Below, piece by piece: positions 30,860 to 35,747 of a stretch of DNA of 42,513 nt (positions are counted from its first letter, which is position 1; every line of letters starts with the position of its first letter). Made by a program: the position numbers and the translations under genes. This DNA comes from an uncultured Bacilli bacterium (lineage in GTDB: Bacteria > Bacillota_I > Bacilli_A > RF39 > UBA660), in the NCBI GenBank assembly GCA_947623735.1, contig CANQHE010000007.1, positions 1 to 42,513 on the forward strand, written 5' to 3'. The notes beneath the pieces were generated by a model. It did no database searches. It was not told the DNA's origin and saw only the letters and a list, made by a program, of their open reading frames with translations.

Positions 30860-30943
30860 AAAAAACACAGTCTTATTAACAGTAATCGCAGTTGCAACTC
30901 TTCTTGTTGCTGTAGTTGGTGCTACTTTTGCGTATTTTACCGC
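30860..30943 (+). repeat. Left arm of a perfect 84-bp inverted repeat (signal-peptide box)
   Basis: Identical in reverse complement to 35584-35667, checked base by base. Confidence 0.97.
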
Positions 30944-31709
30944 TACAAGTACTAGTACTGGAGAAGGTACAAAAACAGGAGAAGTTGAAACAACCATTTT
31001 AGGAGGAACTAGTTTTACTTTTTCAGGTAAAGATTTAGCACATGATTATTTAAAATATCCCGGTGGACTTGCAGTGTTTGGAGCAAAAGCAGAATTTGCT
31101 AAAACAGATACTATGACGGATACAAATGATTATGATTTAACTTTTGATCTAGAAATTAATTACATAAATGAAACTAGCGATAACTTATTATGGGCTCTTT
31201 ACATGGTTGAAGGTGATGGCCTTGAAGCTGATTTAGATCCAGATTGTAAATTAGTTAGCGATGTAGTAGGTAATGAAACCCATTATTGGTATAATGATAC
31301 TGGTACAAAAGATGAAGAAGAAGATGAAACTCCAACAAGCTGTACTTTAAGTTCTTCTCAAAAAGAAACACTTCAAAGCACGACTATGATTGGTTATGGT
31401 TACTTAAAAGCTAATCAAAGTCAAAATGCTGTTATAAATAAAGAAACAGCAACTCAAACAGGAAATCCATCTGGTACAACTGTTGGCAATGTAACTGCGG
31501 AATTATATAATACTGGAGATGAAACTAATAATCCACTAAAAGGTAGAACACTTAATACAGAAGATACTAAATCAAAGTATTACTACTTAGTAGTTCAATA
31601 TCCTAATGAAAATTCAAAACAAAATGAAGACGAAGGATCAAAAACAATAAATGTTTCTTTAAAAGTTTCAACAGGTTCTGCAGCAGCAACATTGAGAAAG
31701 AAAGCTTAA
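30860..31709 (+). pseudogene. Silent cassette 1 of the variable surface protein (no start codon or SD)
   Basis: KNTVLLTVIAVATLLVAVVGATFAYFTATST... open to TAA 31709; in-frame TAA at 30855 directly upstream; the ORF track only shows 31074-31709. Confidence 0.85.
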
Positions 31710-31774
31710 AAACTATTGAAAACCTAAAACTATCGAAAAGATAGTTTTTTTGATGGGAATTTTTATTCCCCATG
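31707..31774 (+). terminator. Conserved cassette 3' element, copy 1: terminator hairpin plus second hairpin
   Basis: AACTATC-GAAAA-GATAGTTTTTTT then GGGAATTTTTATTCCC. Confidence 0.85.
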
Positions 31775-31792
31775 GTTTTCTTCTAGTTTTTA

Positions 31793-31815
31793 TATAATAT
31801 ACGAAGTATATTATA
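31793..31815. repeat. 23-bp lox/dif-like palindrome, copy 1
   Basis: TATAATATAC-GAA-GTATATTATA, perfect 10-bp arms. Confidence 0.85.
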
Positions 31816-31838
31816 GGTAAAATACGCAGCACCATAAA

Positions 31839-32615
31839 CAGTAATCTAGAGTTGCAACTCTTCTTGTTGCTGTAGTTGGTGCTACTTTTGCGTATTTTAC
31901 CGCTACTAATACTGGCACTGGAGAAGGGCAAAAAGCTGAAGTAACGACAACAAAACTTGATAGTGTAACAGTTACTGCTTCAGAAGAAGGAGTTAAAGGT
32001 GTATTAGACTATCCAGGTGGACTTATGATATCTACAACAAAGGTAACAGCATCTACTGCTGGAGAAGGAAGTTACAAAGTTACTTACGATTTAAAACTAA
32101 CTGGAGAAAATGGGACAGAAACTGATGTAAATTGGTATTTGTTTAGAGCTGGAGATGGGACAGGAATTAAAGCTTTAGCAGATCCTAAATGCAAGTTGCA
32201 AATTGATTCAGAAGGAAATACTTCTAAATATTATTATAAAAATGAAGAAAAGTCCGAAACTTGTACTCCAAAAGGTTATATTGAAGAAAAATTAAGCGAC
32301 TTACAATTAGTTGCTAAAGGAACCTTAGCTGAAGGAGCAGTAAGCAACACAGTATTAAGTGCTACTCCTGGTGCAATGGAGGGTATCGAAATTACAAATG
32401 GTGATCCTGAAGGTTTAACAGGACAAACATTGTATACTACTACTGGCGAAAATAAATATGATACTGAATATTATTACTTAGTCGTTGAATATCCTAACAA
32501 GCAAGATTCTGTACAAGGAAACGAAGGAAATCAAAACAATGATATGAATAAAAAAATAAGCATATCTATTAGTTCGCTTGAAAATGTTGTAACTGTATTA
32601 GATAAAACTGAATAA
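31839..32615 (+). pseudogene. Silent cassette 2
   Basis: Shared box VATLLVAVVGATFAYFTATN in frame to TAA 32615; in-frame TAA immediately upstream of the box. Confidence 0.85.
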
Positions 32616-32617
32616 TC

Positions 32618-32693
32618 AAAAAACTATTGAAAACCTAAAACTATCGAAAAGATAGTTTTTTTTGATGGGGAATTTTTATTCCCCATGGTTTTT
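32618..32693 (+). terminator. Conserved cassette 3' element, copy 2
   Basis: Same double hairpin; here ATGGGGAAT-TTTT-ATTCCCCAT is perfect. Confidence 0.85.
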
Positions 32694-32705
32694 TTCTAGT
32701 TTTTA

Positions 32706-32728
32706 TATAATATACGAAGTATATTATA
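32706..32728. repeat. 23-bp lox/dif-like palindrome, copy 2
   Basis: Identical to 31793-31815. Confidence 0.85.
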
Positions 32729-32751
32729 GGTAAAATACGCAGCACCATAAA

Positions 32752-33460: not shown

Positions 33461-33530
33461 AAAAAACTATTGAAAACCTAAAACTATCGAAAAGATAGTT
33501 TTTTTGATGGGAATTTCTATTCCCCACGGT
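33461..33530 (+). terminator. Conserved cassette 3' element, copy 3
   Basis: AAAAAACTATTGAAAACCTAAAACTATCGAAAAGATAGTTTTTTTGATGGGAATTTCTATTCCCC. Confidence 0.85.
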
Positions 33531-33715
33531 TTTCATAGTTTTATGATTAAGTAATTTTAAAAAAACGAGATTATTAAAGAATCTAAAAGTAATAATAAAA
33601 ATTGATATAGATTCGCTAGAATGTAAATATTACTTTAGATATGATGTAAATTTGAATTTGAAAAACAAAGGCCAAAAAATGGTAGGTAAAATATAAGTTA
33701 AAGGGCTTGCTTTTA

Positions 33716-33771
33716 TGAATAAAAATTAAAAAATAAAATTTATGGCATATTTATTTTTTAATTTTTATTCA
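33716..33771. repeat. Perfect 22-bp inverted repeat with 12-nt loop at the convergence point of the cassettes
   Basis: TGAATAAAAATTAAAAAATAAA ... TTTATTTTTTAATTTTTATTCA. Confidence 0.9.
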
Positions 33772-33951
33772 CATAGTATAAAATTATATTGATAAAAAGT
33801 CAATATTTTTTTGAGTTTTACGGATAAAATATTTGTATTATTTTATATATATAAAACAATTTTCTCGTAAAAAAATTATTTTTATTTATAATATATATAT
33901 AATAAGGTTAAGAAGTTAAATTTCCTTTAAGACAAATTTCAAAAAACTATA

Positions 33952-34016
33952 GGGAATAAAAATTCCCATCAAAAAAACTATCTTTTCGATAGTTTTAGGT
34001 TTTCAATAGTTTTTTG
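33952..34016 (-). terminator. Conserved cassette 3' element, copy 4 (inverted)
   Basis: Reverse complement of copies 1-3. Confidence 0.85.
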
Positions 34017-34024
34017 AGATCTTA

Positions 34025-34744
34025 TTATGATGTTTTTCTATTTAATGCAGCATTTTGAGTACTATTAAATTTAATACTAATTTGTTTTCCAGCATCTATT
34101 GTACTTTGATCGCCAGATGCATTATTTGCGTATTTTAGAACTATGTAATAATATTTTTCGCCGGTAACATCAATTTTTTCTCCTTGAGCTGAAAAATCAA
34201 TTTGACCACTGTTAACATCACTTAATGTTATTGGATTATCTTTTGAAATTGTCTCTACACTTTCATCTTCTAATGCTGAAGCATCACATCCATCATAATA
34301 TAGATGTGTTTCATTAGAATTATCTTGGCCTTCTTCATGTCTTTTACATCCAGTGATTGGTGTTGCTATTTGACTATCAGAGCGATAAATGTCATATGTA
34401 AATGTTGAAGAAGTCCAAGTTGTAGAATCTGAATCTGATTTTTTAAATGCGGATAAATCAATCGTTGCACTTAAATCATATTTTATTTCCCAATTACTAG
34501 CATCAGTTGGTGGCGTATCTTGCCAACCAGAATCAACTTTAACTCCTGCAGCTAGCCAAATACCTGGATATACATTTTCTTCATTAGCAATAACTTCTGG
34601 TGTCATTGTTAGTTTTGCATTACTAATCGTTGCAGTTTGTACTTCTGTTGCTTCACCACCAGTTGCATTGGTTGTAGTAGCGGTAAAATACGCAAAAGTA
34701 GCACCAACTACAGCAACAAGAAGAGTTGCAACTCTAGATTACTG
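34025..34744 (-). pseudogene. Silent cassette 4
   Basis: Shared box at 34677-34744 in frame with ORF 34606-34025; in-frame TAA upstream of the box, no SD. Confidence 0.83.
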
Positions 34745-34812
34745 GGAATATGACGTTGTTTCTCTGTTCCTAGACTTTTGCTTTTTACCGTCTTTCTTTT
34801 TAGAAAACTAAG

Positions 34813-34885
34813 AAAACCGGGGAATAAAAATTTCCCATCAAAAAAAACTATCTTTTCGATAGTTTTAGGTTTTCAATAGTTTTTT
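34813..34885 (-). terminator. Conserved cassette 3' element, copy 5, after the expressed gene
   Basis: Same double hairpin, starting at the stop codon of the expressed gene. Confidence 0.85.
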
Positions 34886-35675
34886 ACTCTGTAAGAACTT
34901 TGGTTGATATGCTGTCTATACTATCAAATGATACTGAAATTTGTTTATTAAAGTTTTCATTTGAAGAACCATTTTGTGAAGCACCTTTATTATTTGGAAA
35001 TTCTACTATTAAATAGTATGTGTAAACTGTTGTTCCGTTCGTTGTAAGCTTTTGATCTGCTAAACCTATTGGTTCTTTTTCTGTTCCAAAGGCAGAATCA
35101 AAGCTAGTAGCACCTTCAGTTGGTGATAAAGCTGATCCATCAGTATTTCCACTAAGTGTTCCATATGCAACCAAATCATAATCGCTAAATTCTGAACTTA
35201 TTATTCCACTGGATCCTGTAACATCACAATTCTCATAATAGTATTTTATATCTTGAGTGGAAGAATCAGTTTTTAATTCACATTTAGTATGATTAGAAAT
35301 ATCTTGATCAGAACCATCTGATGAAGTTCTTAAAAGATACCATTTCATATCTTCAGTAGTTTTATTAATTCCAGTTAATCCAATGCTGTAAGAAACTTCA
35401 TAGTTATTTTGATCAGACATATTTTGCTTAGTTACTTCTACTTTAGTACCAGTAATAAGTACTCCTCCTGGATAATCCATTTTGCCTACTTGAGCAATAC
35501 TAGTAGCATTTAATTTAACTCCACCAACTGTTGCAGTTGTAGTTTCTACCTTTCCTACATCTGTACCTTCACTAGTTGCTGTTGCGGTAAAATACGCAAA
35601 AGTAGCACCAACTACAGCAACAAGAAGAGTTGCAACTGCGATTACTGTTAATAAGACTGTGTTTTTTCTTTCCAT
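34884..35675 (-). CDS. Expressed variable SipW-type/TasA-like surface protein
   Basis: AAAGGAGG SD, ATG, MERKNTVLLTVIAVATLLVAVVGATFAYFTAT signal; the only complete copy in the array. Confidence 0.88.
   Translation of the reverse strand: MERKNTVLLTVIAVATLLVAVVGATFAYFTATATSEGTDVGKVETTTATVGGVKLNATSIAQVGKMDYPGGVLITGTKVEVTKQNMSDQNNYEVSYSIGLTGINKTTEDMKWYLLRTSSDGSDQDISNHTKCELKTDSSTQDIKYYYENCDVTGSSGIISSEFSDYDLVAYGTLSGNTDGSALSPTEGATSFDSAFGTEKEPIGLADQKLTTNGTTVYTYYLIVEFPNNKGASQNGSSNENFNKQISVSFDSIDSISTKVLTE
35584..35667 (-). repeat. Right arm of the perfect 84-bp inverted repeat
   Basis: Reverse complement of 30860-30943. Confidence 0.97.
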
Positions 35676-35718
35676 AACTATTGTTTACCTCCTTTACTAT
35701 AAAAAATGATATCAAATA

Positions 35719-35747
35719 ATTTTATTTATTGCAATAGTTTTTTACAA
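35719..35747 (-). promoter_or_regulatory. Putative sigma-A promoter of the expressed variable gene
   Basis: TTGTAA-N17-TAAAAT on the minus strand, upstream of the SD. Confidence 0.65.

Follow-up and report, generated by a model that had tools for sequence, protein, structure and literature searches.

A putative silent-cassette surface-variation locus based on SipW-type secreted proteins in an uncultured gut bacterium of the Bacilli

The DNA stretch analyzed here (42,513 nucleotides, hereafter the window) corresponds to a complete contig (C7, CANQHE010000007.1) of a 1.34-Mb genome assembly in 77 contigs (GCA_947623735.1) of an uncultured Bacilli bacterium (RF39, UBA660), whose origin in the rabbit gut is read from the series name "Lapin". 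An array of five cassettes (c1 to c5) is located between tex and a group of tasA-like/sipW genes; we regard it as very probably a silent-cassette surface-variation locus for SipW-type secreted proteins. Cassettes c1, c2, and c3 are located on the plus strand, c4 and c5 on the minus strand. Each contains the 54-bp box AGTTGCAACTCTTCTTGTTGCTGTAGTTGGTGCTACTTTTGCGTATTTTACCGC, which encodes most of the hydrophobic part of a signal peptide and is present in five exact copies with 0 mismatches (starting at 30890+, 31850+, 32763+, 34733−, and 35637−). Inverted copies of a short conserved site therefore lie between the segments, and the box was found nowhere in the genome assembly beyond these five copies. 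A 3′ element of about 45–73 bp with a terminator-like hairpin is common to all five cassettes. The first-pass annotation of the window had described a shared box of about 60 bp, a common 3′ element, and cassettes 1–3 on the plus strand with the rest on the minus strand, all of which were confirmed. The array is bounded by a 101-nt inverted repeat, whose left (30856..30956, +) and right (35571..35671, −) outer arms are 95% identical in a repeat comparison. In the window species, the boxes start with a perfect 10-bp palindrome, AGTTGCAACT (30890–30899 and the other boxes). It is probably not a universal recombination core, because it is not kept in other species.

Among the five cassettes, only c5 (34884..35675, −; box 35637–35584), which encodes a protein of 263 amino acids with a signal peptide of the SipW-dependent type, possesses both an AAGGAGG motif and an ATG. 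It is preceded by an expression-site leader with the Shine–Dalgarno sequence TATAGTAAAGGAGG (35676..35740, −), a leader that is also conserved in relatives, at their expressed copy beside tex, and followed by its 3′ element/terminator (34813..34885, −). According to the first-pass annotation, the rightmost copy alone has a promoter, a Shine–Dalgarno sequence, and an ATG. The latter two could be verified. The promoter part is carried mainly by the ribosome-binding site, the ATG, and the conserved leader; in the AT-rich stretch, the number of sigma-70-like matches was near background (36 found vs. 29 expected), and the promoter scan was dropped as proof of a single promoter for this reason. The nearest relatives of c5 are an expressed copy in CANRME (66% amino acid identity) and a silent copy in genome G004 (50%).

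The leftmost cassette c1 (30856..31709, +; box 30890..30943), at the sipW/tasA-like end, has no start codon. A TAA (30855–30857) takes the place of the start, the frame is open to the stop at 31709, and the 3′ element/terminator follows at 31708..31780. Several relatives have inward-facing expressed copies at both array ends, so that c1 appears to have been the left expression site before it lost its start. The leader of c2 (31839..32615, +; box 31850..31903; 3′ element/terminator 32619..32691) is broken by a 1-nt insertion, with a TAA at 31842–31844; its body is 72% identical at the amino acid level to a silent cassette of G026. The broken leader recurs in c3 (32752..33450, +; box 32763..32816), the spacer and box of which (169 nt) are 96% identical to those of c2, but it precedes a different body. 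The leader of c4 (34025..34744, −; box 34733–34680), CAGTAATCTAGAG, is broken like those of c2 and c3. The 3′ element/terminator of c4 is located at 33943..34014 (−), the 3′ element of c3 at 33462..33534 (+). In c2–c4, the insertion converts GCAG to TAGAG; the body frame reads CAG TAA TCT AGA GTT, and the leader frame also stops (ATC TAG). All four silent copies have a body-frame stop just 5′ of the box. The array comprises one expression site and silent homologues without promoter, ribosome-binding site, or start. It appears very improbable that the cassettes are independently expressed paralogues, each with its own promoter and a non-ATG or internal start. Many other genera have several copies with proper starts, and an own ribosome-binding site and ATG are found in many genera of the family (G301, G168, G086, and G326), which fits such paralogues. 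However, the silent leaders in the genus of the window have stops in both relevant frames and no ribosome-binding site, and the signal peptide of the silent copies would be cut.

Downstream of these leaders, the silent boxes are in frame with long open bodies, as the first-pass annotation had noted. The bodies of c1–c4 are open over 212–256 codons, for which the chance calculated from base composition is 2 ∙ 10−8 to 2 ∙ 10−10 each. The statement of the first-pass annotation that the bodies diverge strongly applies as well, but they are not unrelated; they are divergent homologues with 24–37% amino acid identity where alignable. In the 28 start-less or 5′-truncated bodies of the genus (6,546 codons), 0 stops occur in the body frame versus 470 and 992 in the other frames. 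The ratio of nonsynonymous to synonymous substitution rates (dN/dS) of orthologous bodies ranges from 0.18 to 0.50. It is 0.25 for c2 and its orthologue in G026, which are silent in both genomes, and differences at third positions are about twice as frequent as at the other positions. This suggests that silent orthologues are under purifying selection, as expected of a regularly read reservoir, without proving it. The array could alternatively be a decaying gene family, in which tandem and inverted duplicates lost their starts and underwent occasional ancient recombination without functional switching. The different ways in which silent copies lost their starts are compatible with decay: ATG is changed to AAG in G004, an AT-rich replacement is found in G016 and G018, G026 has an out-of-frame TTTGATG leader, and the window species has the insertion with a stop. 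Toxin–antitoxin and other mobile-looking genes scattered through the arrays would also agree with it. The lack of stops and the dN/dS of about 0.25 in the silent pair argue against decay, as do the 100% box identity within every genome and the exchange of expressed (ON) and silent (OFF) states at 95–97% flank identity (see below), and we consider it improbable.

Start-less cassettes with open bodies were detected in at least eight congeneric genomes (G001, G004, G012, G014, G016, G018, G026, and CANRME010000106) and in two more genera (G264 and G265; G299), which brings the genera of this family with silent cassettes to at least three. Wherever the flanks are present, the gene order is sipW, SD-rich protein, tasA-like protein, array, and tex. 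An inward-facing expressed copy is located at both array ends in G001 (on one contig) and in G012 and G016 (on separate contigs); the single expressed gene proposed in the first-pass annotation is correct for the window but not for several relatives. Contigs of array-bearing genomes (L028, L030, L032, L034, and L039) often end inside a box, which is why assemblies and gene catalogues probably under-count cassettes. Such ends were rejected as proof of heterogeneity, because repeats alone produce them. A second strain of the window's species was not found among the genome contigs searched, nor was the exact box in the viral contigs searched.

The comparison of relatives points to recombination at the boxes. 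Within each of 10 genomes with 2–10 copies, the box core is identical in 42 of 42 nucleotides, whereas the mean identity between genomes is 80%, with differences mostly at synonymous sites. The bodies beside the boxes are far more divergent than the boxes. Because the boxes are identical within and only about 80% identical between genomes, we conclude from the sequences that they are homogenized within genomes by concerted evolution, which requires ongoing exchange. The genomes G001 and G014 share the same three-position array, and the DNA identity of tex is about 82%. Their outer flanks on the tasA-like side and at tex (82.7% DNA identity) are collinear (L031 8867–9228 with L127 7408–7041 and 12749–15080 with 3403–1072). 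Between the outer boxes, the matching segments run in the opposite sense (9303–9428 with 3286–3411; 10201–10295 with 4062–4159; 10702–11296 with 4559–5150, 598 nt, 87%; 11949–12848 with 5732–6632, 921 nt, 71%). Judged by this alignment, the array is inverted between the two genomes, and each breakpoint falls at an outer box. The counterpart of the body that G001 expresses beside tex lacks a start in G014 and is found there at the other end of the array (58% amino acid identity). The other two bodies have no close orthologues (28% amino acid identity or short matches) although they lie between conserved flanks, which suggests that body replacement in place also occurs. In both genomes, the middle cassette has a truncated box after a perfect hairpin, GTACCACTTGTTAAGTGGTAC (L031 approximately 11130–11190; L127 approximately 5000–5040), which is possibly a boundary or terminator.

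Two further pairs of genomes show exchange between expressed and silent positions. The expressed cassette at the left end of G016 aligns with a start-less cassette of G018 over 1.64 kb (76.6%), with the 5′ edge of the box as the starting point of the alignment. The body expressed at the tex side of G016 is also orthologous to that of a silent cassette in G018, and an intergenic stretch of 758 nt (86%) is preceded by different bodies in the two genomes. In the second genus, flank A (94.6% identity between G264 and G265) adjoins an ON copy in the former and an OFF copy in the latter, and the reverse applies to flank B (97%). A promoter/ribosome-binding site module of about 180 nt, 97% identical, has been moved as a unit (L132 1560–1797; L134 6357–6595), and the bodies are permuted relative to the flanks. 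In this genus, it seems to be the expression site itself that moves, rather than only the bodies. The first-pass annotation had proposed that recombination at the boxes changes the expressed body and had suggested comparing the locus order in close relatives. The order is not fixed between species, being inverted between G001 and G014 and ON/OFF swapped between G264 and G265. These between-species comparisons indicate that silent bodies become linked to the expression site by recombination.

In the proposed mechanism, the expression site beside tex provides one promoter, ribosome-binding site, ATG, and signal-peptide leader, and four further bodies of the same exported family are stored without starts. 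The relatives show that a crossover inside the identical box between opposite copies causes an inversion and joins a new body to an expression site. A replacement of bodies that leaves the two flanks intact appears to occur, too. In the version we favor, RecA-type machinery would catalyze homologous recombination on 54–100 bp of identity, because the carriers of the array share no dedicated invertase; boxes alone would then allow inversion, and boxes together with 3′ elements replacement. RecA is encoded in 8 of 8 carriers tested. No recombinase gene was found beside the array, and searches of the own and carrier genomes for dedicated tyrosine, serine, or IS110-type recombinases revealed none common to carriers except Xer; the dedicated invertase was dropped as a candidate for this reason. 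Serine recombinases were not found in G001, G004, G012, G026, G265, and G299, and the tyrosine recombinases of G001, G016, G026, G265, and G299 are of the Xer type only, plus at most a weak fragment. The term "shufflon-like" of the first-pass annotation is thus not supported in its strict sense (R64 type), which implies a dedicated site-specific recombinase with the array.

The main rival to RecA is Xer catalysis, in which the same locus would switch by site-specific inversion via XerC/XerD or another unrecognized recombinase at a short box core, in the manner of the mycoplasma enzymes Xer1 and HvsR. XerC/XerD-type recombinases occur in nearly all carriers, the palindrome at the beginning of the box would suit such an enzyme, and Xer-like enzymes drive DNA inversions in Mycoplasma (PMC3047005). 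However, the Xer proteins shared by the carriers are the two housekeeping proteins XerC/XerD, the only ones in G001, G016, G026, and G299, and none is encoded next to the array. A dif site in the box was rejected as a candidate, because no dif-like match exceeded the background (18/28 vs. 19/28 elsewhere). Moreover, the whole leader of 80–100 bp is homogenized, and the flank-keeping body replacement resembles homologous recombination. Overall, we consider Xer catalysis unlikely.

For the silent-cassette reading with RecA-type exchange, switching would also take place in the window species, at a rate high enough to diversify the surface of the population, and the product would be exported via the adjacent SipW-like peptidase and serve on the surface as a variable antigen or adhesin. 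Several points weigh against this reading. The comparisons all involve different species. The genomes are mostly fragmented metagenome assemblies, whose contig ends often lie in boxes, which repeats alone can cause. The preference for RecA over Xer is deduced from the absence of a shared invertase, and the antigenic or adhesive role is an inference. The low dN/dS could reflect long expressed periods instead of selection on silent copies. We give slightly better than even chances to the broader view of a family-wide antigenic variation in uncultured gut Bacilli, in which signal-peptide codons of SipW-exported surface proteins double as the recombination site, inward-facing expression sites are located at both ends, and general recombination operates without an invertase.

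The first-pass annotation had classified the cassette proteins as SipW/TasA-type, of which "SipW-type" is a safe label and "TasA-type" is not. The c5 protein matches TIGR04088 (SipW-dependent signal peptide) with 20.1 bits (cut-off 19), and 26 of 51 family members match it at E ≤ 0.05. A SipW-like (ER-type) signal peptidase I is encoded nearby (25969..26805, −; TIGR02228, 89 bits, cut-off 51.85), 8 kb from c5. It scores 79 bits with the SipW-specific NF046067, below the cut-off of 190, and is the likely processing enzyme of the cassette proteins. No relevant Pfam match was obtained for c5 or the 51 homologues, and homology to the TasA/camelysin family was thus not confirmed at the sequence level. 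Two cysteines are invariant in the family. The AlphaFold2 model of c5 is confident and beta-rich (predicted template modeling score, pTM, 0.83) and has no firm match among solved structures. The TasA fiber was retrieved only weakly (Foldseek E 0.085), the best VIA Z score (6.3) belonged to other proteins, and a PDB sequence search was empty.

The array is flanked on the right by tex (35774..37915, −), which encodes an S1-domain RNA-binding protein and is conserved, and on the left by a conserved single-copy gene (29888..30493, −), the product of which has a SipW-like hydrophobic N-terminus and which marks the left flank in relatives. A protein of 959 amino acids is encoded adjoining sipW (26925–29804, −); it combines an SD-rich stretch resembling Clf/Sdr adhesin repeats with a cadherin-like domain, is internally repetitive, and is kept in relatives. 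Beside c1, a RelB/DinJ-type antitoxin gene (30573–30773, −) was found, with no toxin gene recognized adjoining it. In relatives, the cassettes are interspersed with RelB/RelE pairs and other genes that look mobile; in G016, a toxin–antitoxin spacer segment is present in both orientations. Elsewhere in the window, a Bro-N domain protein (15557–16405, +) and a weakly Fic/Doc-like protein (12809–13750, +) are encoded.

Most known cases of antigenic variation via silent cassettes are from pathogens. The first-pass annotation knew of no described system of this type built on SipW/TasA-like proteins, which agrees with our literature search: no report was found that connects SipW to both antigenic variation and silent genes, or that links phase variation to RF39, and a broader search for SipW/TasA and variation retrieved none joining both among the matches listed. 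The locus would extend silent-cassette variation to reduced-genome uncultured gut Bacilli and to secreted proteins for which the searchable literature yielded no case of phase variation. How such commensals change the surface that they present to host immunity or phages would thereby receive an explanation that can be tested. Caution is advisable, as assemblies and gene catalogues hold one state of such a locus and miss start-less coding bodies.

The layout resembles that of several known systems. In the R64 pilV shufflon, a constant N-terminus is likewise combined with exchangeable downstream segments in both orientations. It requires the Rci recombinase and short sfx sites, neither of which was seen in the window array. 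Like the sapA array of Campylobacter fetus, which has shared 5′ ends and is RecA-dependent, the locus appears to use a single promoter for several surface-protein genes. The sapA promoter is described as located on an invertible segment (Dworkin & Blaser 1996, cited in PMC4902306); sapA differs in phylum, protein family, and export route. In Neisseria, pilS copies without promoter and ribosome-binding site feed the expressed pilE via RecA-dependent recombination (PMC4534519), similar to the silent copies here. The pilS copies are partial, scattered segment donors, whereas the array described here contains complete bodies and inversion is evident. The vsa locus of Mycoplasma pulmonis, which relies on the site-specific recombinase HvsR, is also similar. 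There, inversion joins a promoter, ribosome-binding site, and N-terminal coding segment to silent genes lacking promoter and 5′ end (PMC4534519, PMC3047005). The vsa products are lipoproteins with tandem repeats, in contrast to the SipW-type signal peptide and full-length divergent bodies found here, where no dedicated recombinase was detected. In the slpA/slpB S-layer switch of Lactobacillus acidophilus, also of the class Bacilli, the silent gene takes the place of the active one through a chromosomal inversion (PMC7858073, citing Boot 1996). It involves two genes for S-layer proteins, compared with up to about 10 cassettes, outer-box inversion, and body replacement in the arrays analyzed here. 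Judged by its sequence organization, the locus would thus belong to a known kind of system, represented by vsa and slpA/slpB, with SipW-type proteins as the variable product.

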